Shown piece by piece: positions 18,034 to 37,303 of a DNA stretch of 64,000 bases (the first letter of the stretch is position 1; every line of letters begins with the position of its first letter). A program made the position numbers and the translations under genes. The stretch is from assembly GCF_003479405.1 (NCBI RefSeq), contig NZ_QUHB01000005.1:127627-191626 (forward strand), in the 5' to 3' direction. Origin of the DNA: Eubacterium sp. AF16-48. Lineage in GTDB: Bacteria; Bacillota; Clostridia; Lachnospirales; Lachnospiraceae. The notes beneath the pieces were generated by a model that was not told the DNA's origin, ran no database searches, and was given only the letters and a program-made list of their open reading frames with translations.

Positions 18034-19086
18034 TTATTTCTGCCTTGTGTAAAATTTCATCTGTATATTCAAATGATACTCATCATCAGGCAACAATATT
18101 CCCGATTTGAAATTCCTTTCATTTATGTGATTTGGAAAATATTGAGGTTCTAAGCAAAAAGCTTCTCTTTTCTGATATATTGCCCCATTTTTCCCTGATT
18201 CATTCTCCACAAAGTTTGCAGTATATAACTGTATTCCCGGAGTGTCTGCATATAATTCCATTACAATTCCCGACTTATCGCCATAAACTGTGGCTGCCTT
18301 TACTAACTCATTGCCTTCTTTATCTATAACAAAATTATGGTCATATCCACTTCCAAATGCCAGCTGTTCATCCTGACAGTGAATATCCTTTCCTATGTTT
18401 TTTCCCTTTGTAAAATCAAATGGTGTACCCTGTACGTTTCTAATTTCACCGGTAGGTATGGATTCTTTTGATTTCACCGGGGTAAAATATTTTCCATTTA
18501 GTTTTAGTACATGATTATATATACTGCCACTGCTATGACCATTTAAGTTGTAGTAGGAATGATTTGTAAAATTTGCCACTGTTGTTTTATCTGTTTTTGC
18601 CTTGTATGACAGCTTAAGGGTGTTATCCTCTAACAGTGTATATGTAAGGATAATCTCCATATTTCCGGGAAATCCCTGTTCCATATCCCTGCTTAATATC
18701 TTGAAAGATATGCTGTTTTCATTTTCTTCCCCGCATTTTTTCCACATTTTATGGGCAGTGCAGTTTTTTCCGCTATGAAGATTATTTTTTCCATCATTAG
18801 CTTCAAGTTTGTACTCTACACCCTCTATCTCGCATTTGGCATCTGATATTCTGTTGGCATTTCTACATACGTTTGCTCCAAAAAATGTATTAGAATTTTC
18901 ATATTCCGCCCCGCTGTCGTAACCTAAAACCACGTCCGTTAAAACATTATTTTTATCCTTAACTTCTATGGAAACCAAAGTTGCCCCAAAATCCGTGACT
19001 TTCACTTTCATTCCATTTTTGTTTTCCAACGTATATAACGTTGCAACTGTATTGTCTGATACCCTTCCAAACTCTTCTTTTTTCAT
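18034..19086 (-). CDS. galM: Aldose 1-epimerase (galactose mutarotase)
   Basis: Converts beta- to alpha-D-galactose so that galactokinase can use it. The 350 residues hold the mutarotase marks: FGAN(V)CRNANR near 72, NFTNHSYYNLNG with the catalytic His near 177, and the C-terminal LEPQYFPNHIN with the catalytic Glu near 312. The start follows the galR stop by 4 bases, so galR-galM form an operon divergent from galK-galT. Confidence 0.93.
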   Translation of the reverse strand: MKKEEFGRVSDNTVATLYTLENKNGMKVKVTDFGATLVSIEVKDKNNVLTDVVLGYDSGAEYENSNTFFGANVCRNANRISDAKCEIEGVEYKLEANDGKNNLHSGKNCTAHKMWKKCGEENENSISFKILSRDMEQGFPGNMEIILTYTLLEDNTLKLSYKAKTDKTTVANFTNHSYYNLNGHSSGSIYNHVLKLNGKYFTPVKSKESIPTGEIRNVQGTPFDFTKGKNIGKDIHCQDEQLAFGSGYDHNFVIDKEGNELVKAATVYGDKSGIVMELYADTPGIQLYTANFVENESGKNGAIYQKREAFCLEPQYFPNHINERNFKSGILLPDDEYHLNIQMKFYTRQK

Positions 19087-19090
19087 TTTA

Positions 19091-20086
19091 CTATTTTACC
19101 TTTCCACAGCTTTTTCTATTAACAAGTTTACATGCCATTTTTATTCTAATGGGTGCATTACGGCTTAAATTGGAATTTGCGAACAAAATATTTACACCAT
19201 ATTGTCCCATTTCATATGCAGGAGCATGTACCGTGGCAAGCTCCGGTGTGGAATAACGACATATGTCTGAATCATCAAATCCCATAACTGACACCCTTTC
19301 CGGTACATTAATTTTATAATCTCCCAGTGCCTTTATGGCTCCTATGGCAATCTGGTCGCTGGCTGCAAATACCCCGGTAGGCAAGTCTCCGGATTTTATT
19401 ATTTCCTCCATCATTTCATAGCCTGAATCTACGGAATACATACCTGTTTTTAACCATTTTTCGTATTCATATCCACGACTTTCACAAAATTCACAGTAAT
19501 ATCTTTTTCTGTCATCTTCAAATTCCGTATTTTCATCCAGATATTCCATTCCTCCTAAAAATGCCACCTGTTTATGTCCCAATTCTTCAAAATATTCCAT
19601 AACATCATAAACAGCCTTTTTAAAGTCCATTGTAATGGAAGATGCCAGATAATTTTTAACAGGCATATCCAAAAATACTATATTATCTGTTATTTCTATT
19701 AATTCCTTTATTTCAATATCACTGAATTTTCCAATGCATATTAGTCCGTCGACACTTTCTAACTGTTCCAGGTAATTAACATCAGTTTTAAAGGTTCTTA
19801 CTATTTCCACGCTGTTTTTCAGGCAAAAATCTTCTACACCTCTTCTAATATCTAAGTAATAACTGTCCTCCATTTCCTGCTTTGGTGAAAACCATTGTAA
19901 AATTCCCAGTTTAAACAGGGCTTTGCTGGCTTTGGGTATTTTTTTATACCCCAGCTTCTTTGCCACTTTCATTACTTTCCGTTTAGTTTCTAATGAAGCT
20001 GATAATGTAGGATCATTGTTAAGTATTCTTGACACTGCCGATACACTTACTCCTGATTTTTCAGCTATATCCTTAATCCTTGCCAT
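19091..20086 (-). CDS. galR: LacI-family regulator, probable galactose repressor
   Basis: A 331-residue transcription factor: LacI helix-turn-helix (MARIKDIAEKSGVSVSAVSRIL, 1-22, then hinge), followed by a periplasmic-binding-protein-like effector domain (about 60-325) with a GVFAASDQIAIGAIKAL stretch and a VMGFDDS loop. It lies divergent from galK, with four TTTACTAAA-like sites between them, so it probably represses both gal units until galactose or a derivative binds. The effector is inferred from context only. Confidence 0.85.
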   Translation of the reverse strand: MARIKDIAEKSGVSVSAVSRILNNDPTLSASLETKRKVMKVAKKLGYKKIPKASKALFKLGILQWFSPKQEMEDSYYLDIRRGVEDFCLKNSVEIVRTFKTDVNYLEQLESVDGLICIGKFSDIEIKELIEITDNIVFLDMPVKNYLASSITMDFKKAVYDVMEYFEELGHKQVAFLGGMEYLDENTEFEDDRKRYYCEFCESRGYEYEKWLKTGMYSVDSGYEMMEEIIKSGDLPTGVFAASDQIAIGAIKALGDYKINVPERVSVMGFDDSDICRYSTPELATVHAPAYEMGQYGVNILFANSNLSRNAPIRIKMACKLVNRKSCGKVK

Positions 20087-20143
20087 ATATAACCTCCACG
20101 TTATGTATTACATCTTTTACAAGTATATATTATTTTTATAAAT

Positions 20144-20224
20144 TTTACTAGTTTTTTTAAAAATTTAGTAAATATTTTCATGAAAGTGTTGATTTTTTAC
20201 TAAACTTATTATATATTTACTAAA
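20144..20224. promoter_or_regulatory. galK promoter with repeated TTTACTAAA operator candidates
   Basis: TTGATT (20189-20194), 17-base spacer, TATATT (20212-20217) drives galK. TTTACTAAA occurs at 20196-20204 (between -35 and -10) and 20216-20224 (at the -10/+1 side), its complement TTTAGTAAA at 20164-20172, and TTTACTAGT at 20144-20152. The placement would block RNA polymerase when bound; GalR from the divergent gene is the natural candidate. Confidence 0.6.
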
Positions 20225-20247
20225 AAGGATAGATTCGGAGGTACAAA

Positions 20248-21531
20248 ATGATTAACTCAGGAGAAATATTAAGAAAATTTGAAAATAAAGAATTTGACGA
20301 TGTATTGATAAAGCTTTACCCGGACAATAGGGAAGCCATTAATTATCAGAGAAAACGTTATACTGATATGATTAATAAAAGTATTTCTTTGTTTGGTGAC
20401 ACAGACGTTGAAATATACAGTGCTCCAGGAAGAACGGAAGTAGGCGGTAATCATACAGACCACCAGCATGGCGAGGTTCTTGCTGCTTCCATCAATCTTG
20501 ATGCCATAGCTATAGTTTCTAACAATTCCCATAATAAGATTAATATATATTCCATAGGATATGCACCTATAGAAATTGATTTAAATAATATTTCCTACAA
20601 CAAAGAGGAAGAAGGCACTACAACTTCCATTATTAAAGGGGTATTAAATGGTTTTACTAATCACGGCTTTAAAATCGGAGGATTTAACGCCTGCATAACC
20701 AGTGATGTGTTAAACGGTGCAGGTCTTTCATCTTCTGCTGCATTTGAAACCCTTATAGGCACTATTCTTTCAGGGCTTTTTAACAACATGACTATTTCTC
20801 CTGTGGATATTGCCATTATCGGTCAGTATGCTGAAAATCAGTTTTTTGGAAAACCTTGCGGATTAATGGATCAGATGGCATGTTCAGTAGGTAATTTTGT
20901 TCACATTAATTTCAAGAATCCGGAAAAACCTGTTATAGAACAGGTTAATTTTGACCTGAATAAAGAGGGATATTCTCTTTGTATCGTGGACACAAAGGGT
21001 TCCCATGCTGATTTAACAGATGATTATGCCAGCATTCCTTATGAAATGAAGGAAGTTGCCGCTGCCATGGGTAAAAATTTGTTAGGTGAAATAAATAGTG
21101 AGGAATTTTTTAATGAAATTCCCGTGCTTTCTAAAAAAGTCAGTTCAAGAGCAATTCTTAGGGCAATTCATTTCTTTAACGAAAACAGACGTGTTCAGGT
21201 TGAAAGTAAGGCATTAAAGAATTACGAGTTTGAGGAATTTTTGCACACTGTAAAGGAATCCGGAGATTCTTCTTATAAACTTCTTCAAAATATTTATTCT
21301 CCAAAGGACGCCACAAATCAGCCTATTTCCCTGGCACTTACCCTTACGGAAAACTTTTTGGGTGATGACGGTGTGTGCCGTGTTCACGGCGGTGGATTTG
21401 CCGGAACCATTCAGGTTTTCGTAAAAAACAGTATTGTTGATGAATATAAAAAATATATAGAAAAAGTTTTTGGAACTGATTCCTGTCATATTTTATCCAT
21501 TAGAAACGTGGGAGGTACCAAAGTATGTTAG
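20248..21531 (+). CDS. galK: Galactokinase
   Basis: GHMP kinase of 427 residues making galactose 1-phosphate from galactose and ATP, the first committed Leloir step. It shows the galactokinase signature GRTEVGGNHTDHQHG (about 60-74), the ATP loop LNGAGLSSSAAFE (about 156-168), and the C-terminal motif VHGGGFAGT. GGAGG lies 6 bases ahead of the ATG. It is slightly longer than E. coli GalK (382) owing to an N-terminal extension of about 40 residues that is common in clostridial forms. Its stop overlaps galT by 7 bases. Confidence 0.95.
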   Translation: MINSGEILRKFENKEFDDVLIKLYPDNREAINYQRKRYTDMINKSISLFGDTDVEIYSAPGRTEVGGNHTDHQHGEVLAASINLDAIAIVSNNSHNKINIYSIGYAPIEIDLNNISYNKEEEGTTTSIIKGVLNGFTNHGFKIGGFNACITSDVLNGAGLSSSAAFETLIGTILSGLFNNMTISPVDIAIIGQYAENQFFGKPCGLMDQMACSVGNFVHINFKNPEKPVIEQVNFDLNKEGYSLCIVDTKGSHADLTDDYASIPYEMKEVAAAMGKNLLGEINSEEFFNEIPVLSKKVSSRAILRAIHFFNENRRVQVESKALKNYEFEEFLHTVKESGDSSYKLLQNIYSPKDATNQPISLALTLTENFLGDDGVCRVHGGGFAGTIQVFVKNSIVDEYKKYIEKVFGTDSCHILSIRNVGGTKVC

Positions 21532-23015
21532 ATACATATATTAAACAATTAGTTACTTACGGAATAAGGAAAGATTTAATTAAAGAGGCGGATAAATATT
21601 ACTGCATAAATACTATTATTTCATTATATAACAGGGATTATTTTTCAAATCCTGATATAGATAATGACCTTCCCTCTCTTAATGAAATACTTAAGTCTTT
21701 AACTGATATTGCAGTAGAAAAAAATCTCATACCTGACAGCATAACCTACAGGGATTTATTTGATACTAAATTAATGGGTTGTATCACTCCTATGCCTTCA
21801 CAGGTTCAGGAGAATTTTAAAAAGCATTATGAAATATCCCCTAAAGCTGCAACAGATTTTTACTATAATTTCAGTTGCAATACTAATTATATTCGTTTAG
21901 ACAGAATTGCAAAAGACTTAAAGTGGAAAGTTAATTCTGATTACGGAGAATTAGACATTACCATTAATTTATCCAAACCTGAAAAAGATCCTAAGGCAAT
22001 TGCTGCTGCAAAGAATGTTAAGTCCTCTGACTATCCTAAGTGTTTTCTTTGTAAGGAAAATGAGGGCTATGCAGGTCATGTAAACCACCCTGCCCGGGAA
22101 AATCACAGGATTATTCCCTTAACTCTTAATGGTACCCCGTGGTATCTTCAATACTCCCCTTATGTGTACTACAATGAACACTGTATTGTGTTTAATGGTG
22201 AGCATGTTCCTATGAAGATAGACAAATCCACCTTTGTAAAGCTTTTTGACTTTGTTAAAATGTTTCCTCACTATTTTATTGGTTCTAATGCAGACCTTCC
22301 AATTGTTGGAGGCTCCATACTAAGCCATGACCATTTTCAGGGAGGAAATTATACTTTTGCCATGGCAAAGGCTTCATCATTATATTCATTTAATGTAGAG
22401 GGATACCCTAATGTTTCCTGTGACATATTAAAATGGCCTTTATCAGTGATACGACTTACTTCAGATTCCACTGAAGATATTATAGACTTAGCTGAACACA
22501 TTCTTAATAAATGGCGTAGTTACACTGATAGTGATGCTTATATTTTTGCCAAAACAGACAACGAGCTTCACAATACCATTACCCCAATTGCCCGTTTTAG
22601 AAATGGTAAATATGAGCTGGATTTAACTCTCAGAAATAATATTACTACTAAAGAGCATCCTCTTGGGTTATACCACCCTCATGAGGAGCTACACCATATT
22701 AAAAAAGAAAATATCGGGCTTATAGAAGTAATGGGACTGGCAGTTCTTCCATCAAGGCTTAAAGAGGAAATGAATCTGCTGGCAAATTATATAATAAATG
22801 AAAAGGACATTTCCTCAAACAGTCACATAGCAAAGCATGAAAAATGGGTCAAAGACATTCTGACCCATAGAAATGACATAACATGTGATAATATCTTTTC
22901 CGTTTTACAGGATGAAATAGGAAAAGTTTTCATAAAAGTTTTAGAAGATGCCGGTGTTTATAAGTGTACCCCTGACGGACTTACATCCTTTAAAAAATTT
23001 ATAAACACCTTATAA
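21525..23015 (+). CDS. galT: UDP-glucose:hexose-1-phosphate uridylyltransferase (GalT, Firmicutes type)
   Basis: Transfers UMP from UDP-glucose to galactose 1-phosphate, giving UDP-galactose and glucose 1-phosphate. The 496 residues belong to the longer Firmicutes GalT family (GalT_2), with the conserved FLCKENEGYAGHVNHPAREN and the catalytic-type histidine stretch GGSILSHDHFQGG (near 265). Translation is coupled to galK by a 7-base overlap, with GGGAGG inside galK. No galE lies nearby, so UDP-galactose epimerase must be encoded elsewhere. Confidence 0.93.
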   Translation: MLDTYIKQLVTYGIRKDLIKEADKYYCINTIISLYNRDYFSNPDIDNDLPSLNEILKSLTDIAVEKNLIPDSITYRDLFDTKLMGCITPMPSQVQENFKKHYEISPKAATDFYYNFSCNTNYIRLDRIAKDLKWKVNSDYGELDITINLSKPEKDPKAIAAAKNVKSSDYPKCFLCKENEGYAGHVNHPARENHRIIPLTLNGTPWYLQYSPYVYYNEHCIVFNGEHVPMKIDKSTFVKLFDFVKMFPHYFIGSNADLPIVGGSILSHDHFQGGNYTFAMAKASSLYSFNVEGYPNVSCDILKWPLSVIRLTSDSTEDIIDLAEHILNKWRSYTDSDAYIFAKTDNELHNTITPIARFRNGKYELDLTLRNNITTKEHPLGLYHPHEELHHIKKENIGLIEVMGLAVLPSRLKEEMNLLANYIINEKDISSNSHIAKHEKWVKDILTHRNDITCDNIFSVLQDEIGKVFIKVLEDAGVYKCTPDGLTSFKKFINTL

Positions 23016-23088: not shown

Positions 23089-23652
23089 TTATTTTGTAAG
23101 AAAATGTTCCCTGTTAGGGTACTTTTCTCTGTATGCAGATAAGGCTGCATTCTGAAAAATCTCAAATTCCCTGTCTAAGTGAAACATATGAGGGGTATAA
23201 AAGGCAATTGCACTTATTTGTTCAGCAATCTTTTTTGCCACTCCTTCATCAGATAATTGCCCCAGACCAAACACAGCAGATGTAAATCCCCTTCCGTTTT
23301 TACTGGTTTCTATAAACTTTAAAAATACATTTTTCATTTCAAGAAACAAAATTTTCTTCTCCTTAGTGCTTCTTTCACAGGCATTAAACAGGTATAATCC
23401 ATTGATAATTTCATATAGCTCTTTCTTTTTGCTTCCCCCTATATCCATTGCATTTCTTTCAGACAGACTTTTCATCTGCATAAGATAACCCATAAACAAA
23501 TCTTTCTTAGGCTTTCTTTTTCCGTACCTGGCAATCCATAATTTTTCCATAAAAAGCCCTATTTCATCTTCTAATTTATGGTCATTTAAAATTTCCAGTC
23601 TTGCTTCCGGGTCTGTTTCATTATAAAACTCCCTAATCCATGTATCCTCCAT
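23089..23652 (-). CDS. Uncharacterised 187-residue cytoplasmic protein, last gene of the sugar-sensing operon
   Basis: I do not recognise a named function. The protein is mostly alpha-helical by composition, has no signal or membrane segment, and contains basic clusters (ARYGKRKPKKD, ERSTKEKK) and a VFGLGQLSDEGVAKKIAEQ stretch. It lies 18 bases after the lipoprotein gene on the same strand, so it is probably co-transcribed with the two binding proteins, kinase and regulator. The ribosome site is AGGAG. A link to sugar sensing is inferred from position only. Confidence 0.6.
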   Translation of the reverse strand: MEDTWIREFYNETDPEARLEILNDHKLEDEIGLFMEKLWIARYGKRKPKKDLFMGYLMQMKSLSERNAMDIGGSKKKELYEIINGLYLFNACERSTKEKKILFLEMKNVFLKFIETSKNGRGFTSAVFGLGQLSDEGVAKKIAEQISAIAFYTPHMFHLDREFEIFQNAALSAYREKYPNREHFLTK

Positions 23653-23670: not shown

Positions 23671-24711
23671 TTATCTTCCTATAAAACTATCTACACTATC
23701 AATATCTACCTTTTTATACTGGGAAACATAATATTTGCCCTGATTTAAGTTGTGACCTTGCAAACTGTTTCCTTTAAAAACATCAACCACTAATTTTGCT
23801 ATTTCCATAGCCTGGTCTTCTTTATCGTTGTACACTGTTCCCTGCATTTTCCCGTTTTTTATTGCCTCTAAAGCATCCTCTAATCCGTCAATTCCAAATA
23901 TTATAGGCATCTCTTTCTTTCCGTACCCCGATTTTTTGTATGCGGCAACGGCTCCTAATGCCATCTCATCATTATTGGAAATAATCAGTTCTATTCTGTT
24001 TTTATACTGACTTATTAACTGGGTAACTCTGTTTTCCGCCTGACCTCTGTTCCAATCTGCAAACTGATAGCTTAATTTCTCCAAGTCAATTCCATTTTGT
24101 ATAATTGTCTTTACTGAGCAATCTGTTCTGCTTATGGCATCCTGATGTCCTGCTTCACCCTCTAATAAAACATATTGTATTTTGCCGTCTTTATTTTTAT
24201 CCACATCCGGATGTTTCGCCAAATAATCTGCAACGATTTCTCCCTGCATAACTCCTGACTGCTCTGCAGCACAACCAACATAATATAGCTTGTCCCACTG
24301 CATAAGATCTTCCCTTACAGGCTCACGGTTAAAGAAAATTATAGGTATGTTATTTTGTCTTGCAAGCTTAATAATCTTCCCCGGTGCAGTTCTGTCCACC
24401 AAATTGACACACATTATATCGCATCCTGCATCTATCATTTCTTCAACTAATTCATTTTGATTTCTCTGGTCATCATCGCCATTTCTTCCTGACACAATTA
24501 TCTTCATGTCATCACTTTCCATGGCCTTTAAATCTTCCTTAACCTTTTCTACCATTGCATTTATAAAAGGATCATCCTGAGTATATGTAACTATACCCAC
24601 CCTTAAAATGTCATCTCTGCTTTTTTTCTTCTGACTACATCCTGTAGCGGTACATATAAGTACAATTCCCATTACAAATGCAATAACTGCCTTCTTATTT
24701 ATTTTACTCAT
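23671..24711 (-). CDS. Galactose/glucose-binding lipoprotein, canonical order (sensor-associated MglB paralogue)
   Basis: A 346-residue periplasmic-binding-protein family lipoprotein (lipobox ending TATGC). It keeps all E. coli MglB landmarks in normal order: YTQDDPF (sugar Asp/Phe), NLVD, the EF-hand-like calcium loop DKNKDGKIQ, GHQDAISR, the Trp in ADWNRGQAENR, SNNDEM and GIDGL. So galactose or glucose binding is likely. The start at 24711 gives a clean lipoprotein signal and overlaps the upstream stop by 8 bases; the ATG at 24738 is less likely. Location in an operon with a histidine kinase and response regulator, apart from mglAC, suggests a sensory rather than a transport role. Confidence 0.82.
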   Translation of the reverse strand: MSKINKKAVIAFVMGIVLICTATGCSQKKKSRDDILRVGIVTYTQDDPFINAMVEKVKEDLKAMESDDMKIIVSGRNGDDDQRNQNELVEEMIDAGCDIMCVNLVDRTAPGKIIKLARQNNIPIIFFNREPVREDLMQWDKLYYVGCAAEQSGVMQGEIVADYLAKHPDVDKNKDGKIQYVLLEGEAGHQDAISRTDCSVKTIIQNGIDLEKLSYQFADWNRGQAENRVTQLISQYKNRIELIISNNDEMALGAVAAYKKSGYGKKEMPIIFGIDGLEDALEAIKNGKMQGTVYNDKEDQAMEIAKLVVDVFKGNSLQGHNLNQGKYYVSQYKKVDIDSVDSFIGR

Positions 24712-25672
24712 AAGAATATAAAAACCTTTCCATTTCATCAGTAAATAAATCTTTCTGATAAATTACTTTTGCCTTAACATTGTAACTTTTCATTTCATAA
24801 AATAATTTGTTAAGCTTTTTAGAAATTTCCATAACACTTCTATAACCTATATCATAACTATCAATAGCAACAATACAATTTACATTTCCGTTATCTAACA
24901 AACTTATGGATTTTTCGCTGCTGCCTATACCGTATATCTGTGCCCCATTGTACACCCCGTTTTCACTGTTTGCTCCCAATTCATCTAAGGAATAATTGTC
25001 CATTGCCACCAGATAATCTACCTTTGATTTGGTTTTCACAATGCTGCAAATATCCTGGTCCCGTATTCCACTGTAAGTCCATGCCACCTTAATATCTGAA
25101 TCTTCTATGGCATCCATAAAACCTTTGTATGTGTTGACAGTTTTTTCTTTTTCGTGCTGGTCTAAAATAACTCCTATTTCCTTTGTTTTTCCTCTGGCTG
25201 AATCATTAACAATGCTTTCTCCTAACTTGTAACCAATTTTATAATTGTCAGGCTTAATTACAGGATAACCCGATTTTTCCCCGTCATCTCCCATAAAAGC
25301 ATCTTCCACTATAAATATAAATGGAATATCGCCACAGATTTTCTTTATTTCATTTTTTGTGTTTGATCCGGGAGCCGGACAGATAATAAATCCCTCTGCC
25401 CCATTGTCAATCTGTTCTTTCATCAGTTCCTTTTCGTCCTGAAAGCTATAAATATCATCTGTGTTACATATAATTAAATGTAAGTTATTAACTTTTGCCG
25501 CACTTTTTAAACCATTTATTAACGCATCCCAGTTTTTATCACCGGAATTTTCCACAATAACTGCAATCTTTTTTTCCGGTGTTTCATGGTCAAATATTCT
25601 ATATGTGAATAATACTGCCAACATACACAATATTATTTCCGTAATGAGAAAGGCCATCTTATTTTTTTTCAT
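24704..25672 (-). CDS. Membrane-anchored sugar-binding-type protein of the sensory operon
   Basis: A 322-residue protein with one N-terminal membrane segment (about 7-24) not followed by a lipobox, then a type I periplasmic-binding fold (IAVIVENSGDKNWDALINGLK, GAEGFIICPAPGS, EIGVILDQHEKEKTVNTYKGF, YGIGSS). The start at 25672 has GGAAGG 6 bases ahead; an ATG at 25678 would sit on the ribosome site. Its start lies within the kinase gene's end and its stop overlaps the next binding protein. Such anchored proteins are known to present sugars to LytS/YesM-type kinases (e.g. XylFII-LytS in clostridia); this role is inferred. The ligand is unknown. Confidence 0.72.
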   Translation of the reverse strand: MKKNKMAFLITEIILCMLAVLFTYRIFDHETPEKKIAVIVENSGDKNWDALINGLKSAAKVNNLHLIICNTDDIYSFQDEKELMKEQIDNGAEGFIICPAPGSNTKNEIKKICGDIPFIFIVEDAFMGDDGEKSGYPVIKPDNYKIGYKLGESIVNDSARGKTKEIGVILDQHEKEKTVNTYKGFMDAIEDSDIKVAWTYSGIRDQDICSIVKTKSKVDYLVAMDNYSLDELGANSENGVYNGAQIYGIGSSEKSISLLDNGNVNCIVAIDSYDIGYRSVMEISKKLNKLFYEMKSYNVKAKVIYQKDLFTDEMERFLYSYE

Positions 25673-27536
25673 TTTCATCCTTCCTTCCTATGTTTTGATT
25701 TTCCAGATTTTTTCTGTTTTCTTCATTAAAAGGAATTGCAGGTATGTGAATGGTAACTTTTGTTCCTTCGTCTGCTTCACTTTCTACACTTAAGCCATAT
25801 TGGTCTCCAAACATTAATTTAATCCTTGAATGAACGTTTATAACCCCTACTCCTGAACCATGCTTAGGGGTTTTACTATTATCCTTAAGTATATTCTCAA
25901 CTACTTCCTCTCTCATTCCCATTCCGTTATCTTCCACGGTTATAAATATATCGTCATTTATTTTTTTACCTGTAACAACTATTTCGCCGTCATCTATATC
26001 AATGTCTCCCACACCATAATATATGGCGTTTTCCAGTATCGGCTGTATAACAAGTTTGACAATACAATAGTCGTTAATTTCATCATCCACGTCAAATCTG
26101 ATTTTGAATCTTTCCTTATACCTTACCATCTGTATATTCATATAGCTTTTGCTATGCTGTAATTCATCAGATATTTTAATTATGGTTCTTCCCTTTGACA
26201 AACTTATTCTAAGTAACTTGGCAAGCTCAGAAATCATAAATACCGCTTCTTTGTTTTTACCGGCTTCAACCATCCATGTGATGGACTCCAATGTATTATA
26301 TAAGAAATGAGGATTAATCTGGCTTTGTAGGGCATCCATTTCACTTTTTCTTCGTTCATTTTGCTGTCTTATGATTTCCTTCATTAAGTCCTCAATTTGC
26401 TCATAGGATTTTTGTACTGAATATCCTAAATCCCTGATTTCCGAGGAACCTCCAATGTATATTCTGTTTTTACCCCCTGCCTCGTAGGATTTTACTGAAT
26501 CATTAAGATTTAATATAGGTCTGGATATTTTTCCCGATACTATTTTGTTTACCACAAGAAGCATCATAATTAAGAAAATAATGGTTATGATAACGTAATA
26601 CCTGAATTTATTTATGCTTATTGTCTGAATTTTATCAGGAACCACACCCACAACTTTCCATCCTGTATAGGCAATACTACTTATAATATAATTTGCCCTG
26701 CCTCCATTGAGATTTAATTCATAGGTTCCATCTTCATAGCCTGCAATCCGGGTACTTTCTTCCGAAATAATTCCCCTGTCTATTTCCACCTTTCTTGGAT
26801 GATAAATTAATTCTCCATCGCTGTTGCACAAATAATAATATATTCCATTTGTATCTTCATTAATTCTATCTAAAGCTTCTTCTATAATGGAATACTTCAT
26901 ATCTATAAGTAAGACACCACTAACCGGCGTTTCCCCATCATTAATATCTACGGAACGGCTTAGGGATACCACCCGGTAATATTTAAAAGCTCCGTCGGTA
27001 AATAAATTCTGTATGTGGGGTGTGGAAAAATGGATGTTTTCAATTTCATCTGTGGCATTGGAAAACCAATCCTGTTGTTTTACATAGGCATTTTCTTTCT
27101 CTGATGCTACAGGTTCAGCTGCAATAAGCTTTCCGGAAGTATCATATAATGCCATACTTTGTATTTTGTCCGAATTAATTTCATATAATAAACTAAACTC
27201 TTTATTAAGCATTTGGTCTGATACATCATATTGCTGAACAATATTATAATTTGCCACATTTGAGATCTGCCTAATTTCAAGAAGGTCTCCGTCTATTTTA
27301 TCTACTACACTATCTATAATGTCTTCTGCACCGGACACAGAGGTTTCTTCCGCTGAAATCTTAAATCTGTTATAAATAAGCAGTCCCATAATTATAGTAG
27401 TAATAATCGTTAATGTGGTTAAAACTGCCATAATAATAGACTGAATATCAAATCTCACCGTTCCTTCACGAAAAGACCTTATGCCGCCTTTTTTATTTTT
27501 CCCGTCTGCTTTTTTTATTTTATCCACTATTGCCAT
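25659..27536 (-). CDS. YesM-type sensor histidine kinase
   Basis: A 625-residue membrane kinase: cytoplasmic lead (1-32), first span (about 33-55), extracytoplasmic Cache-like sensor (about 60-310), second span (about 311-332), HAMP (about 333-385), then a His_kinase domain with phosphoacceptor His410 in QSQINPHFLYNTLES and an HATPase_c end (NAIYYGVG, DNGMGM, GSGVGVINVHSR). It autophosphorylates and passes phosphate to the adjacent response regulator, 11 bases upstream in the same operon. Its last codons overlap the anchored binding-protein gene, so kinase and binding protein are made together. The signal is probably a sugar, from context. The ribosome site is weak. Confidence 0.88.
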   Translation of the reverse strand: MAIVDKIKKADGKNKKGGIRSFREGTVRFDIQSIIMAVLTTLTIITTIIMGLLIYNRFKISAEETSVSGAEDIIDSVVDKIDGDLLEIRQISNVANYNIVQQYDVSDQMLNKEFSLLYEINSDKIQSMALYDTSGKLIAAEPVASEKENAYVKQQDWFSNATDEIENIHFSTPHIQNLFTDGAFKYYRVVSLSRSVDINDGETPVSGVLLIDMKYSIIEEALDRINEDTNGIYYYLCNSDGELIYHPRKVEIDRGIISEESTRIAGYEDGTYELNLNGGRANYIISSIAYTGWKVVGVVPDKIQTISINKFRYYVIITIIFLIMMLLVVNKIVSGKISRPILNLNDSVKSYEAGGKNRIYIGGSSEIRDLGYSVQKSYEQIEDLMKEIIRQQNERRKSEMDALQSQINPHFLYNTLESITWMVEAGKNKEAVFMISELAKLLRISLSKGRTIIKISDELQHSKSYMNIQMVRYKERFKIRFDVDDEINDYCIVKLVIQPILENAIYYGVGDIDIDDGEIVVTGKKINDDIFITVEDNGMGMREEVVENILKDNSKTPKHGSGVGVINVHSRIKLMFGDQYGLSVESEADEGTKVTIHIPAIPFNEENRKNLENQNIGRKDENEKK

Positions 27537-27547
27537 ATTTCCCGTAA

Positions 27548-29152
27548 TTATTTACCTAATTTCTCATTTCTATATTTAGATGGAGATACTCCATATTTTT
27601 TCTTAAATACATAACTGAAGTAATTGGCGTCGGTATATCCCACCATTTCAGCTATTTTGTAGCTTTTTTCATTTGTATCCATTATTAATCCTGCAGCAAT
27701 TTCCATTCGGTAATCTGTAAGATATGTAACAAAGGACTTACCTACTTCCTTTTTAAACACAGATGAAAAATATGAATTTGATACTCCCATTAAAGAACAT
27801 ACTTTATCTAAGGATAAATCCGGTTCCATATATCTGTCCCTTACTATGTTCTTTCCGTCATTTACTAAACTCATTGACTTGCTGTTTCGGACACTTTTTA
27901 ATTTCCCGCTTACACCTAATGAACAGTCAATTAACCATGATTCCAAGGTGTTTTCGTCCATTTGAGGAACATTTTCATAAGGATTATCTATTCCATTTAA
28001 AAAGTCGTTAAAGTCCATAAAGTTGTTGGCACAAAATCTGTAAAATGCCCCTACCATTTCCATTATTACTAAATTATACTGGCTGACTGTATTAGCATTT
28101 TTGTGTAATTTTTCTATTTCCCTGCTAACTGCATCTTCTATGGATTTACTGTTTCCTAAATATATTGCCTTAAATAAATCATGCATTTTTGAATCTTCTG
28201 ACTGTATAGTCATGTTTTGCTCATTAGGTGCAATTTCTTCTATATTAATTGCCCTGTTGGTTCCATATAAAACCCTGTATGATACTGCCTCTCTTGCTCC
28301 TTCATAAGAACTGTTTATGTTTAATATATTATCACACATTCTGCCTATACCCGCTGTAACCACGGCACCGATAACCCTGTTTACCCATTTGCAGAATTTG
28401 TCACAAATATCCGTAAATTCCACCATTTTTTCTTTAGAACTTAATTCTACAATTAATAACGTATTTCCTAAATAAATAAATTCCCTGCAATTTAGTCTTT
28501 CGGCAATTCTTTCCTTTATTTCCCTTTCAACAGACATAGACAGTAACAATGGTTCCATATTTTCAGGAACATTATGGGTAGATGTATGGAAAATCGCACA
28601 ACAATAATATGGCCCCCTAAAATCAATTTTATAGGAATCCACAAATTTTGAATATTCCCCTTCATCAACTCTTCCTTCAATTAATGAAACAAATAAATTG
28701 GTCTGAAGTATTGGGAGTACATCATTAAAATAATTCTCAAGTTTCTGAACATTTAATTTTTCTTCTCTTTCTACATCTAATGAATTTTTTACCCTTTTTA
28801 AACATTCAGTTAATTCCTGGGAATTGATGGGTTTTAACATATATTCTTCAACCTCAAGATGAACTGCTTCCTTTGCATATTCAAATTCATCAAATCCCGT
28901 AAATATAATAATGTGAATATTTCTGTAATCATCATTAAGCCTTTTAGATAACTCAAGGCCATCCATATAAGGCATCTTAATGTCAGTAATAACCACATCC
29001 GGCTGTGTCTTTTCAACAAGCTCTAATGCCTTTACTCCATTAGTTGCACTGCCAACTACCTGAAATCCCAGCTGGTCCCAGGCTATTTTTTGTTTAATTA
29101 CATCAATAACTTCTTCTTCATCATCTACTAGAATGACCTTATATTTATCCAT
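27548..29152 (-). CDS. YesN-type response regulator with AraC DNA-binding domain
   Basis: A 534-residue transcription factor. The receiver domain (1-120) has Asp10/Asp11, phosphoacceptor Asp57 (VITDIKMPYMDG), Thr85 and Lys107 (YMLKPI). A long central region (about 130-410) precedes a C-terminal AraC-type double helix-turn-helix (LDKVCSLMGVSNSYFSSVFKKEVGKSF, then KIAEMVGYTDANYFSYVFKKKYG). It pairs with the YesM-type kinase. The mglB promoter nearby has a -10 without a clear -35, as expected for an activated promoter, so mgl is a likely target. Confidence 0.88.
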   Translation of the reverse strand: MDKYKVILVDDEEEVIDVIKQKIAWDQLGFQVVGSATNGVKALELVEKTQPDVVITDIKMPYMDGLELSKRLNDDYRNIHIIIFTGFDEFEYAKEAVHLEVEEYMLKPINSQELTECLKRVKNSLDVEREEKLNVQKLENYFNDVLPILQTNLFVSLIEGRVDEGEYSKFVDSYKIDFRGPYYCCAIFHTSTHNVPENMEPLLLSMSVEREIKERIAERLNCREFIYLGNTLLIVELSSKEKMVEFTDICDKFCKWVNRVIGAVVTAGIGRMCDNILNINSSYEGAREAVSYRVLYGTNRAINIEEIAPNEQNMTIQSEDSKMHDLFKAIYLGNSKSIEDAVSREIEKLHKNANTVSQYNLVIMEMVGAFYRFCANNFMDFNDFLNGIDNPYENVPQMDENTLESWLIDCSLGVSGKLKSVRNSKSMSLVNDGKNIVRDRYMEPDLSLDKVCSLMGVSNSYFSSVFKKEVGKSFVTYLTDYRMEIAAGLIMDTNEKSYKIAEMVGYTDANYFSYVFKKKYGVSPSKYRNEKLGK

Positions 29153-29318: not shown

Positions 29319-30971
29319 TTATTTCTTCTGTACATATTTAAGGCAGTCAAGTGTTACTGCTGCAAGAATAATGATTCCTTCAAAAATAAACTGAAGGTTT
29401 GTATCAATTCCAAGAATTGTAAGTGAATATGTAAGAGATGTAAATATAAGAACACCTGTTACAACACCTGAGATTTTACCAATACCACCTGTAAATGAAA
29501 CACCACCTACTACGCAGGCTGCAATGGCATCCATATCCCATCCTTGTCCATAAGCTGCACTACCGGAACCAACCATTCTGTTACATTCAAGCCATGAACC
29601 GAATCCATAAAGGATACCTGCAAGAATGAAAGCTCCCATTGTAACTTTAAATACTGATATACCGGAAACTGATGCTGCTTCAGGGTTTCCACCTACTGCA
29701 AATAAGTTCTTTCCAAAGGTTGTCTTATTCCAGATAAACCATACAACTGCTATTGCAACTACTGCCCACAAAATAATTGTTGGGAATCCTCCCAGCTGTG
29801 GAATAAATATATTTGGAATTGCCGGATCAATGGCACCAAATGAAACACCCTTTGTTGCATAAGTTACAAGACCAAATATAATAAGCATGTTAGCCATAGT
29901 TGATATAAACGGATGCATCTTAAACTTCGCCATAAAGAAACCTGCAATCATTGCAAAGCATGTTGTAAGAATAATACAAACAACTAAAGCAAATACTGCT
30001 CTTCCAGCAGGTGCCATATTGGAGAAATCAAATATATGTCCGAATACACCACCTGTGTTAATGCCATTATGCATTATAATTGTTGAAGCAACCATGCCCA
30101 TACCAACCATACGTCCAACAGAAAGGTCTGTTCCTGTTAAAAGAATCAATCCTGCAACTCCAAGGGCTAAGAACATTCTTGGTGATGCCTGCTGTAAAAT
30201 ATTAAGTATGTTTGTGTATGTAAGAAGCTGTGTATTTTTAACTACCGGTGTAATTGCACATAATGCAATAAAAATCAAAATAATTACAATATACAAACCG
30301 TTTTTGTATAAAAACTGTGATAAATTAAATGTATATTTATAATTCTCCATTCTCTGCTGCATCTTCTGGGCAAATGTATACTTTGATGTACGCAGCAAAT
30401 CAATTAAATGATACTTATGCATATATGCATCATGTTTTCTGTCTTTAATTTCCTGACATTTTGATTCATGAGTCATCTTAGCATCATATAATTTATTTTT
30501 ATAAACATATTTTTCGTCTTTAATTTCTTCTGAATCTGATAATTTGCTTAAAGCAGCTTCATGTTCCTTTTTTAATTCAGCACAAACTTTTTCATAATTT
30601 GTTTTTTCAACTGCTTTTTCACTTTCACAACTAGCTGAAACTTTACTGTAATACTGGCTGTCATAATTTTTTGAAAGATATTCTTCTGCCTGGGCAATAA
30701 GCTTTGAAACTTCATTCTTGTTTGAGCTTTCAACTGCCTTTGCCTTTTCTAAAGCCTTTTTGTCACTTTCAATAATTTTTGCCTTTTCTTCTTTAGTTAA
30801 ATTCTTGTTTTCCTTTACAATTGCCATGTGGTTCTTTAAACTTCTGACTTTATCTGAACCATCTGCACGTAAGGAATCTATTTGTTTCTGTATTTTTCCA
30901 ACATATTCATCTATCGGCTTAAGAAGCTTTTGTTCTTCATCAACCGAAAGAATAACACCTTTCTCTGCCAT
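29319..30971 (-). CDS. mglC: Galactose ABC permease MglC with long coiled-coil N-terminal extension
   Basis: Membrane subunit of the galactose/methyl-galactoside importer. The canonical permease (E. coli 336 residues) corresponds to about 215-550 here, with eight to ten spans and the family block LALGVAGLILLTGTDLSVGRMVG. Ahead lies an extra cytoplasmic segment of about 210 residues, rich in Lys, Glu, Ser and Ala with heptad-like spacing (KIIESDKKALEKAKAVE) and no membrane span. No internal start with a good ribosome site separates the two, so it is a true fusion or extension. It lies 18 bases downstream of mglA. Confidence 0.87.
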   Translation of the reverse strand: MAEKGVILSVDEEQKLLKPIDEYVGKIQKQIDSLRADGSDKVRSLKNHMAIVKENKNLTKEEKAKIIESDKKALEKAKAVESSNKNEVSKLIAQAEEYLSKNYDSQYYSKVSASCESEKAVEKTNYEKVCAELKKEHEAALSKLSDSEEIKDEKYVYKNKLYDAKMTHESKCQEIKDRKHDAYMHKYHLIDLLRTSKYTFAQKMQQRMENYKYTFNLSQFLYKNGLYIVIILIFIALCAITPVVKNTQLLTYTNILNILQQASPRMFLALGVAGLILLTGTDLSVGRMVGMGMVASTIIMHNGINTGGVFGHIFDFSNMAPAGRAVFALVVCIILTTCFAMIAGFFMAKFKMHPFISTMANMLIIFGLVTYATKGVSFGAIDPAIPNIFIPQLGGFPTIILWAVVAIAVVWFIWNKTTFGKNLFAVGGNPEAASVSGISVFKVTMGAFILAGILYGFGSWLECNRMVGSGSAAYGQGWDMDAIAACVVGGVSFTGGIGKISGVVTGVLIFTSLTYSLTILGIDTNLQFIFEGIIILAAVTLDCLKYVQKK

Positions 30972-30989: not shown

Positions 30990-32498
30990 CTACAAATATT
31001 TAGCACTAAGCCTTAATAATTCTTCCTGATTTGTTTCATTTGTATTAACTATTCCTGCAAGATGTCCATTAGACATTACGCCAATACGATTTGTGATTCC
31101 TAATATCTCCGGCATTTCAGATGAAACAACTATTATTGTTTTTCCCTGTTTAGCCATATTAATAATCAACTCATATATTTCATATTTTGCGCCAACGTCA
31201 ATACCTCTGGTAGGATCATCCATCATAAATACATTTGGTGAACGTTCAAGCCATTTACCAAATATTGCTTTTTGCTGATTTCCTCCTGAAAGATTTGAAA
31301 TCATATCATCAGGTCCCATACACTTGGTGTGCATTACCTTTATTTCCTCTGCTGTTGCACGAACCATGTCATCCTTTGATAAAGCAATGCCTCTCTTATA
31401 ATGATTCATGTTTGCAATGGTAGTATTAAATGTAATATCTCCTTTTAAGAAAAGACCGTTTGCTTTTCTTTCTTCCGTTATTAAAGCAAATCCATGATCC
31501 ATGGCATCTTTAGGTGATGAAAAATTCATTACTTTTCCATCATACATTATATTACCTGCTGCTCGTGTTCTGACACCAAATATAGTTTCAAGGAGTTCTG
31601 TACGACCGGCTCCAACTAAACCGTATAATCCAAATATTTCACCTTTTCTTATATCAAAAGAAATATTTTGAAGTTTTGGTGCATATTTTGTAGAAAGATT
31701 TTCCACTGAGAAAATCACTTCTCCCGGTTTGTTGTCTACAGGTGGGAATCTGTTATCTAGGGAACGACCAACCATAGCCGATATCAGCTCATTCATATTT
31801 GTATCTTTGCTGTCCTTAGTCATTACCAGACTTCCATCTCGTAAAACAGAAATTTCATCACATATCTCAAAAATTTCGTCCATCTTATGGGATATATATA
31901 TTAATGAAATTCCCTGACTTTTTAGTTGTCTCATCATTTTAAACAGCTTTTCTACTTCCGGTGCTGTTAATGATGATGTAGGCTCGTCAAGTACGATTAC
32001 CTTTGAATTATATGAAATAGCCTTTGCAATTTCACACATCTGTCTCTGGGACACAGACATTTTCTTCATTGGCTGTGTCATATTAACAGTTATTCCTAAT
32101 TTTCTAAATAAATCGGAAGCTTCTTTTTTCATTCTTCCTTCGTCAACCATGCCTAATGAGTTTTTAGGATATCTGCCTAAAAACAGGTTGTCAACAACGC
32201 TTCTTTCGAGACACTGATTAAGTTCCTGATGAACCATGGCAACCCCGTTTTCAAGAGCATCTTTTGGACCGGAAAAATTAACTTCCCTTCCGTCTAATAT
32301 TATTGTTCCTTCGTCCTTTTGATAGGTTCCGAAGAGACATTTCATCATTGTCGATTTACCTGCTCCATTTTCACCCATAAGGCCCATTATTGATCCCGGT
32401 TTAACATTCAAATTAATATGTTTCAGAACCTTATTTCGGCCGAATGATTTACTCATGCCGTTAATCGACAGGATGTATTCATTCTTATCTTCCACCAT
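30990..32498 (-). CDS. mglA: Galactose ABC transporter ATP-binding protein MglA (double ATPase)
   Basis: A 502-residue cytosolic ATPase with two ABC domains typical of sugar CUT2 importers. Domain 1 has Walker A GENGAGKST and Walker B VIVLDEPTSSL, with a degenerate signature MSVSQRQM. Domain 2 has a degenerate Walker A (GLVGAGRTE), signature LSGGNQQK and FMMDDPTRGID. This asymmetry is usual for MglA/RbsA. It is second in the operon, 84 bases after mglB with a hairpin between them, then mglC. Confidence 0.93.
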   Translation of the reverse strand: MVEDKNEYILSINGMSKSFGRNKVLKHINLNVKPGSIMGLMGENGAGKSTMMKCLFGTYQKDEGTIILDGREVNFSGPKDALENGVAMVHQELNQCLERSVVDNLFLGRYPKNSLGMVDEGRMKKEASDLFRKLGITVNMTQPMKKMSVSQRQMCEIAKAISYNSKVIVLDEPTSSLTAPEVEKLFKMMRQLKSQGISLIYISHKMDEIFEICDEISVLRDGSLVMTKDSKDTNMNELISAMVGRSLDNRFPPVDNKPGEVIFSVENLSTKYAPKLQNISFDIRKGEIFGLYGLVGAGRTELLETIFGVRTRAAGNIMYDGKVMNFSSPKDAMDHGFALITEERKANGLFLKGDITFNTTIANMNHYKRGIALSKDDMVRATAEEIKVMHTKCMGPDDMISNLSGGNQQKAIFGKWLERSPNVFMMDDPTRGIDVGAKYEIYELIINMAKQGKTIIVVSSEMPEILGITNRIGVMSNGHLAGIVNTNETNQEELLRLSAKYL

Positions 32499-32582: not shown

Positions 32583-33854
32583 CTATTTTGAGAGAATTGA
32601 TGTATATGAAGCTGCATTATCTGTTTTAACCATGTTAATTGCGAATGCATCATATTCACCCGGATTTCCTAAACGGTTAGTAATATTTGATTCTGTCTGT
32701 CCGTCACCACCAATATAATCTACCTTAAGGTTAAGAAGGTCATCATACTTTTCAAGTAATGGCTGGTATGTTGAGCTAAGGAAGTTGTCTGATGCATTGT
32801 AAATGTTAAGCCATACTTTCTTTTCTGCGCTCTTGCTTGAATCAAGCTTTTTTGAAACCTTGTCGTAAATCTTTGTTGAATCTGTAAAATCTTTGTAGTT
32901 GTCAGCTGTTACAGCAACGTTTAATGCGTAATATGATCTTTCTTCTTCGCTGTATCTGTAATCTTCATCCTTTGTAAGGCTGTTTCCTGCATCGTCAGGT
33001 GTTCCAATTCCTGTATCAATATCTACACCATCAAGTGCATTACGGAGAACTCTAAGTGTAAGGTATGCCTGAACATCAGCATGCTGTGAAATTGTTCCGC
33101 CGTATCCTTCTGCTATAGCTGCTACTGCATCGCTGTTAGCATCATATCCAAATGTTGGAACCTTGTTGTCCTTAGCCCATGCATTAAACATTGACATTCC
33201 CATACCATCATTATTTGATACAACTACATCAATCTGTTTGCCAAATGAAGCTGTCCATGTTCCAATGGCATTTCCTGCTGTTGCTGCATCCCATGTTGCA
33301 CCGGCTGAATTCTTCATTTCCTGTGATGCTAACTCTCTGACTGTATATGTCTTTCCATTAACTTCCAAAGTTGCATCCTGTACAGCTTTTGATTTGCCGT
33401 CTACGTTGGTTCCTGCCGGTGATGAATCAACACTTCCGTCTTTCTTTACAGCTGTTCCGAGAGCTGTACGAACACCACATGTACGTGCGATTGAATCATT
33501 GTGTCCGATATCTCCGATGGCAAGAACATAACCGATTATTCCGTCTCCATTTCTATCGATTTTGTCGATGTTTGCCTTAATGTAATCTAATACCATCTGT
33601 CCCTGAAGTTCTGCACCCTGGTTAGCATCAAATCCTACATAATATGTATCTTTGTTGAAATTAAGTGCTGTTGTGTCAAGAGCGCCTGTGGAGCTGTTTG
33701 ACGGCTGACGGTTAAACCAGCATAATGGCTTATCCTTATTTGCCACTGAACCGGTTGAAGTTCCTCCTGAACTTCCTCCTGATGATCCGCAGCCTACCAT
33801 TGACATTCCAAGGGCTGCTGCAACTAAAACTGTTAAAAACTTTGATCTTCTCAT
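32583..33854 (-). CDS. mglB: Galactose-binding lipoprotein MglB, apparently circularly permuted
   Basis: Main solute-binding protein of the mgl importer, 423 residues, lipobox ending at Cys22 (MVGC). The canonical ligand and calcium motifs are all present but in rotated order: CWFNRQPS (45-52), YYVGFD, calcium loop DRNGDGIIG (100-108), GHND...R (118-124), Trp188 in ATWDAATAGNAIGTW, SNNDGM (213-218), GYD (236-238), then only at the C-terminus YNASDNF (352-358) and NMVKTDN (407-413), which open normal MglB. The canonical paralogue at 23671 makes the rotation plain. About 45 extra residues lie at 140-185. AGGAGG precedes the ATG, and mglA follows. Confidence 0.85.
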   Translation of the reverse strand: MRRSKFLTVLVAAALGMSMVGCGSSGGSSGGTSTGSVANKDKPLCWFNRQPSNSSTGALDTTALNFNKDTYYVGFDANQGAELQGQMVLDYIKANIDKIDRNGDGIIGYVLAIGDIGHNDSIARTCGVRTALGTAVKKDGSVDSSPAGTNVDGKSKAVQDATLEVNGKTYTVRELASQEMKNSAGATWDAATAGNAIGTWTASFGKQIDVVVSNNDGMGMSMFNAWAKDNKVPTFGYDANSDAVAAIAEGYGGTISQHADVQAYLTLRVLRNALDGVDIDTGIGTPDDAGNSLTKDEDYRYSEEERSYYALNVAVTADNYKDFTDSTKIYDKVSKKLDSSKSAEKKVWLNIYNASDNFLSSTYQPLLEKYDDLLNLKVDYIGGDGQTESNITNRLGNPGEYDAFAINMVKTDNAASYTSILSK

Positions 33855-36121: not shown

Positions 36122-36664
36122 TTAATAGTTTTCTTCATGTACTTCAAAGTAACTCTTCGGATGATTACATACCGGACATACCTCCGGTGCCTTCGTTCCT
36201 ACCACAATATGTCCACAGTTACGGCATTCCCATACCTTAACTTCACTCTTTTCAAACACCTGTGCAGTTTCAATATTCTTAAGGAGGGCACGATATCTCT
36301 CTTCATGGTGCTTCTCAATCTCTCCTACAGCCCTGAATTTTGCTGCAAGCTCAGGGAATCCTTCTTCCTCAGCTGTTTTCGCAAATCCCTCATACATATC
36401 TGTCCATTCATAATTTTCGCCTTCTGCAGCTGCCGCCAGATTTTCCTTTGTATCACCGATTCCTGCTAATTCCTTGAACCACATCTTTGCATGTTCTTTC
36501 TCGTTATCTGCTGTTTTTAAAAATAAAGCTGACATCTGCTCGTAGCCTTCCTTTTTCGCTACAGAAGCAAAATAGGTATACTTATTTCTTGCCTGTGATT
36601 CCCCTGCAAATGCCTCCTGTAAATTTTTCTCTGTCTGTGTTCCCGCATATTTGTTTGCTGCCAT
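36122..36664 (-). CDS. Possible separate rubrerythrin from an internal start
   Basis: Same frame as the fusion gene. ATG at 36664 ([14 protein letters not shown], the usual beginning of stand-alone rubrerythrin) is preceded by GGAGGTAAAAGAA, a strong ribosome site inside coding sequence. The 180-residue product would hold the diiron domain and C-terminal rubredoxin. Whether it is made is untested. Confidence 0.5.
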
Positions 36665-37303
36665 TTCTTTTACCTCCGTTTTCTTTACTACTTTTTCAAA
36701 ATCTGATGCCGGGTGCTTGCACAAAGGACATATAAAGTCATCCGGTAATTCTTCGCCTACATATTCGTATCCGCAAATTCTGCAACGCCATATTGTCTGA
36801 CCATCCTCCGTCTTTCCAACTTTCTCTGGCTTAGGCTTAATATTATTCTGGTAATAATCATATGTTACTGAAGGAACATTACTTAAAACTTCCATATCAG
36901 TTATCTCACCCATAAACATTGTATGGGAACCTAAATCCTCTGTTTTATTAACTGTTACAGAAATGTATGCATTTGTACCTTCTGTAACATAGTAAATACC
37001 GTTTGAACCTCTGGCACACTTTTCAAATGCTTCAAATTTATTAACATTCCTTCCTGATTGAAAGCCAAAATGTTTGAACAATTCAAACTGTGCATTCTGA
37101 CTCAGGACCGATACTGTGAATTTTCCGGTTCTTTGAATCATATCATGAGTGTAATTTGCTTTGTTAACGCAGATACTTAACTGGTTTGGTTCTGAAGCTG
37201 CCTGAATAGCAGTATTAATGATACAACCATTATCTTTTTCGTCTTCCTTAGCAGTCAGTACAAACAATCCATAACTCAACTTATACATTGCTTTCCTATC
37301 CAT
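36122..37303 (-). CDS. Flavin reductase-rubredoxin-rubrerythrin fusion (with internal start)
   Basis: A 393-residue multidomain redox protein. Residues 1-155: NAD(P)H:flavin reductase fold ([29 protein letters not shown]), as in high-molecular-weight rubredoxin. About 168-205: rubredoxin (CRICG...CPLC). 214-345: rubrerythrin diiron four-helix domain ([31 protein letters not shown]). About 350-393: C-terminal rubredoxin (CRNCG...CPVC). Electrons could pass from NAD(P)H via flavin and rubredoxin to reduce peroxide in one chain. At residue 214 an ATG (36664) has GGAGG 8 bases ahead, so free 180-residue rubrerythrin may also be made. Its start overlaps the PerR-like gene by 8 bases. Confidence 0.9.

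Follow-up and report, generated by a model that had tools for sequence, protein, structure and literature searches.

A circularly permuted MglB, a putative lipoprotein of the TpMglB-2 class, encoded with an N-terminally extended MglC permease in Lachnospiraceae

The stretch of DNA analyzed here (the window) comprises 64,000 nucleotides of Eubacterium sp. AF16-48 (contig NZ_QUHB01000005.1, positions 127,627 to 191,626), and all coordinates refer to it. On its minus strand, a 423-amino-acid (aa) MglB, a putative lipoprotein (32583..33854; PF13407 and PF18610), is encoded, which very probably serves as the lipid-anchored, sugar-binding component of a galactose/glucose ATP-binding cassette (ABC) importer (MglB-MglA-MglC), belonging to the permuted class of TpMglB-2 and inherited together with an extended MglC. 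Taken together, sequence and model show the permutation as well as the family, the binding residues and the linkage with the extended MglC. As judged from both, the window MglB is circularly permuted: residues 344-423 (32586..32825, minus strand) correspond to canonical N-lobe strands 1-3, placed at the C-terminus, and the mature chain begins at strand 4.

In Pfam searches, PF13407 (Peripla_BP_4) aligned to residues 67-276 through profile positions 93-256 alone, the first 92 positions missing, and PF18610 (Peripla_BP_7) matched residues 344-414. BP2, an MglB-like protein from the same operon (23671..24738, minus strand; Pfam), was used as internal control. Because PF13407 positions 1-257 were matched in one stretch, it is a fair non-permuted control, as the initial annotation had held. 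For alignment to normal MglB, a rotated query consisting of residues 345-423 followed by residues 40-284 was compared with 10 listed MglB sequences from Escherichia coli, Salmonella, Yersinia and Thermoanaerobacter. For six of these, the best stretch began at query residue 3 and chain residues 4-10, spanned the joint and ended at chain residue 162-168; for the other four, the better of two stretches was situated further on. Using the query in native order, the better of two stretches began at chain residue 72 (one sequence) or 160-170 (nine sequences). In profile-profile comparison (hhalign), residues 344-423 were colinear with the canonical N-lobe segment over 70 of 80 columns (single-comparison E 3.6e-5), and matched the remainder of canonical MglB over 4 columns (E 0.12). 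The score of the N-lobe match was reached by none of 300 column shuffles, and the reversed profile also fell short of it. The rotated order, which the initial annotation had read from the motifs, was thus confirmed by the truncated PF13407 match, PF18610 at the C-terminal end, and the rotated-query and profile matches.

The chain opens with a signal peptide read from the sequence (33789..33854, minus strand), ending in MVGC at Cys22, which by its pattern we take to be a lipobox with Cys22 as the putative lipidation site; a Gly/Ser-rich linker follows. Residues 40-343 (32826..33737, minus strand) supply canonical strand 4 onward, the C-lobe, the calcium loop (D100-N102-D104) and a connecting stretch, after which the chain returns at its C-terminus to provide N-lobe strands 1-3 with D356 and F358. 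MglB would then close on its sugar with the usual residues, in Venus-flytrap manner, and hand it to MglC.

The permutation itself is established knowledge. In PMC4990184, it was reported in 2016 for TpMglB-2 (Tp0684) of Treponema pallidum (PDB 5JX2) and named 'Type Ic/Cluster Bc'. It is also described there for treponemes and many Gram-positive bacteria, gut commensals among them, with homologues of the permease tp0686 distributed similarly to the permuted binding protein. A novel topology was therefore rejected, on full-length homology to TpMglB-2 and this published description, and by sequence the window MglB is a homologue within the known class. That paper asks of class members a sequence match to TpMglB-2 over >90% of the length, with matching N-termini; residues 39-420 (382 of 423, 90.3%) were matched by phmmer to residues 19-384 of the 5jx2 chain (E 2.6e-88), the remainder being mostly signal peptide and linker. 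N-lobe strands 1-3 lie at the C-terminus, and the connecting stretch before them is present and aligns to TpMglB-2 in the phmmer comparison. Colinear homology over the full length, permutation, a predicted lipoprotein nature, an ABC transporter partner and the ligand residues are shared with TpMglB-2 (PDB 5JX2, 6BGC, 6BGD). In the window, the operon further encodes a two-component sensor as well as additional binding proteins, a feature established for the window side only.

Glucose-binding residues given in Table 2 of PMC4990184 were transferred by hand via the phmmer alignment to TpMglB-2, and by these residues the window MglB fits Type Ic/Cluster Bc. Each of the mapped residues (N48, H118, D120, R124, W188, N215, D238, Q257, D356 and F358) is invariant across all 39 aligned rows. 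The initial annotation had stated that all ligand-binding residues survive; this holds for nine of the ten, which are identical to E. coli in that table, whereas E. coli N256 is replaced by Q257, a substitution shared with TpMglB-2. D356 corresponds to E. coli D14 and is Asp also in Treponema saccharophilum, in contrast to N311 in TpMglB-2. Since D356 is as in E. coli MglB, we infer from sequence that galactose would be bound alongside glucose, unlike in TpMglB-2.

Fold, calcium loop and these nine ligand residues are common to the window protein and canonical MglB (E. coli 2FVY/1GLG, Salmonella 1GCA). N-lobe strand order differs, and up to ~60 residues (285-343) connect the C-lobe with the displaced segment. 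In the calcium loop, mapped by hand, G108 stands for E. coli Q142, the same as in TpMglB-2. Against the canonical MglB model NCBIfam NF011924 (cut-off 420 bits), the window MglB scored 89.7 bits in two stretches and BP2 234.5 bits in one. As BP2 falls below the cut-off too, the cut-off alone is no marker of permutation.

In the genome collection, 436 relatives were confirmed, of which the best 80 were fetched and used in the locus counts. By record title, these were mostly from Lachnospiraceae, with Holdemanella and Enterococcus included. The rotated order was kept in all 80, each aligning in a single blastp stretch from residue 39 or earlier to residue 421 or later, with 73-89% identity. Two draws were made around the genome of Roseburia faecis locus L021: of 299 genomes sampled from its phylum, 2 contained PF18610, and of 200 sampled from its family, 21 did so, this genome being itself a positive in both draws. 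Two database homologues of the permuted MglB (P0007 and P0018) are longer through a repeated internal segment and could be assembly artefacts.

Beside mglB, also on the minus strand, lie the genes of the MglA ATPase (502 aa; 30990..32498) and the MglC permease (550 aa; 29319..30971). Residues 1-216 of MglC (30324..30971) form an N-terminal extension that is hydrophilic (no 19-residue Kyte-Doolittle mean above 0.03 among segments starting before residue 192) and predicted to be helical, with modelled helices at 10-36, 39-54, 60-143 and 147-194. The model was confident for the extension (block means 81-90, residues 11-190) and poor overall (mean predicted local distance difference test, pLDDT, 61.6; predicted TM-score 0.38). 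MglC passed the threshold of PF02653; against NCBIfam NF007014 (cut-off 386 bits) it scored 281.1 bits, over residues 216-550 only. Foldseek with the whole MglC model as query, the extension not being searched alone, gave zero matches at E <=0.001. Judging from titles and the starts of abstracts, no description of the extension was found among the papers listed, other 'MglC' items being different or unrelated. Because it is located before the first transmembrane segment (TM1) and has no hydrophobic stretch, the extension is probably cytosolic. One may speculate that it acts from that side on MglA or on MglC assembly.

MglC was detected in 71 of the 80 permuted loci, each time with 174-229 aa preceding the membrane part; these lengths are upper bounds, since each start was set at the earliest ATG, GTG or TTG that follows a stop codon. 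In the other nine loci, judging by lengths, the available DNA stops before the end of mglC. In the 200-genome family draw, the extension (residues 1-215) was present in exactly the 21 genomes with PF18610 and in none of the 179 others, a zero that is valid to the depth of the scan (at most 15 candidates scored per genome). Extension and PF18610 were situated on one contig, within ~2.5 kb, in 20 of these 21 genomes and on two contigs in the remaining one (G303). Thirty ordinary MglC loci from the same draw had an N-terminal part of 1-78 aa. Three loci with MglC of non-permuted type (L174, L175 and L181) had 73-92 aa before the membrane part; their genomes (G387, G340 and G481) are outside the 21.

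The same pairing was found in the rumen Treponema T. saccharophilum, where pTS2 encodes a permuted MglB (44% identity over 417 columns, same order to residue 421), MglA and a 562-aa MglC (44% over 567 columns with the window MglC), with no sensor genes adjoining. Residues 1-220 of this MglC alone matched the window extension with E 1e-9 (33% over residues 10-95). A profile of Lachnospiraceae-type extensions matched the first 220 residues with E 1.2e-12, the best of 200 shuffles giving E 1.7. The match was clearest over the first 95 residues.

The window operon also exists in an ordinary version. Eleven loci from the same bacterial family (L166-L176) have a seven-gene operon of identical order: binding protein, MglA, MglC, response regulator, kinase, BP3 and BP2. 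They differ in that the binding protein is non-permuted (truncated by a contig end in L176, present twice in L171) and that MglC measures 327-410 aa vs ~550. In total, 16 non-permuted loci were used, hand-picked as an MglB-like match beside MglC (several with two such matches) and thus not a random sample. In trees of MglA (35 permuted and 16 ordinary rows), the MglC membrane part (33 and 16, computed without the extension columns), the response regulator and the kinase (32 and 11 each), the permuted operons lay on one side of a single branch with support of 100 each. These were quick trees, in which several of the ordinary rows for MglA and MglC sit on long branches, and the permuted rows were selected by us from more than 70. 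Thirteen plasmid records matched P0001, two of which cover most of the query. On the Agathobacter rectalis plasmid NZ_CP143948.1 (L187), all seven operon genes are present, with recombinase/integrase and IS91-type genes upstream. In two further permuted operons (L182 and L183), downstream sensor genes are absent and an ordinary MglB-like protein and a kinase lie upstream instead. Because L182, L183 and T. saccharophilum are without the sensor genes, the sensor half need not accompany the transporter genes.

Some results weigh against the permutation as described. The hhalign probability of the moved segment was only 71.5 against the N-lobe segment and 53.3 against the whole canonical profile. 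Of five AlphaFold2 models of the window MglB, four were poor (mean pLDDT 55-60), the best one fell below 50 at residues 1-34, 354-359 and 410-415, and the root-mean-square deviation of the model to 5jx2 and 6bgd was 4.7-4.9 Å. An alternative is raised in PMC4990184, where the origin of the C-terminal part from another gene is left open, as alignment identity was only 13%. The segment would then stem from some other gene and resemble the missing strands by convergence, and MglB itself would not be permuted. The modest hhalign probability, together with the lower likeness of the moved segment to canonical MglB (17% over 70 columns) than of the body (30% over 195 columns), fits such an origin. 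It nevertheless appears unlikely, since the segment is colinear with the N-lobe of non-permuted MglB-like proteins at a score that no shuffle reached, and retains the D and F with which the E. coli protein binds sugar. The profile match thus supports that the moved segment is homologous to the canonical N-lobe, the point on which PMC4990184 does not decide; this match does not distinguish between the same gene and a different binding protein from the same superfamily as donor. A sequencing or assembly error, which the initial annotation had named as a possible refutation, is virtually impossible: nothing was found in favour of it, the order is conserved in the 80 fetched relatives and in T. 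saccharophilum, and T. pallidum structures have been solved.

The initial annotation had further suggested that the permuted MglB may dock differently with the unusual MglC; in this reading, the permutation would be an adaptation matched to the extension. It agrees with this proposal that 21 of 200 genomes, and also T. saccharophilum, have both the permuted MglB and the extended MglC. The extension, however, precedes TM1 and is predicted to be cytosolic, in which case it would be beyond the reach of MglB, which leaves altered docking on it unsupported. In addition, both genes belong to one operon and the permuted operons lie on one side of one branch, so common descent suffices to explain the linkage, which by itself is therefore no independent proof of a functional tie. 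An adaptation of docking is accordingly quite improbable, the interpretation in the initial annotation is supported in part, and the preferred explanation remains a permuted MglB of the TpMglB-2 class that was inherited with the extended MglC.

The permuted MglB and extended MglC are accompanied by a two-component sensor and by two binding proteins of the ordinary type, all on the minus strand. These are a response regulator with AraC-type output (27548..29152; Pfam), a histidine kinase with dCache and His_kinase domains (25659..27536; Pfam), the periplasmic-binding-protein-like accessory BP3 (24704..25678), in which an N-terminal hydrophobic stretch was noted by eye, and BP2. From their domains, the probable task of kinase, regulator, BP3 and BP2 is to sense sugar and to regulate the operon. 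Entries 5XSS and 5XSJ of XylFII-LytS were among the fold matches of the window MglB model. XylFII-LytS is reportedly a binding protein paired with a sensor kinase, and might be a model for BP2/BP3 and the kinase. Galactose genes adjoin the operon at 18034-23015, namely galT (Pfam) and, by eye, galK, a LacI-type regulator and an aldose 1-epimerase, and a 187-aa protein is encoded at 23089-23652, between galT and the operon. At 36122-37303, the product resembles, by eye, a flavin reductase - rubredoxin - rubrerythrin fusion.

It is possible, although doubtful, that permuted MglB and extended MglC define a distinct sub-type of carbohydrate uptake transporter 2 (CUT2) galactose/glucose importer in Lachnospiraceae and a rumen Treponema. 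A ~215-aa cytosolic helical permease domain would then control the transporter from inside, and the ordinary MglB/MglC pair would have been displaced in an otherwise shared sensor-transporter operon. The existence of this operon in permuted and ordinary versions provides a natural control for why a permuted binding protein persists. The MglB-MglC pairing, of modest extra interest beyond the known class, offers a testable handle on that persistence.
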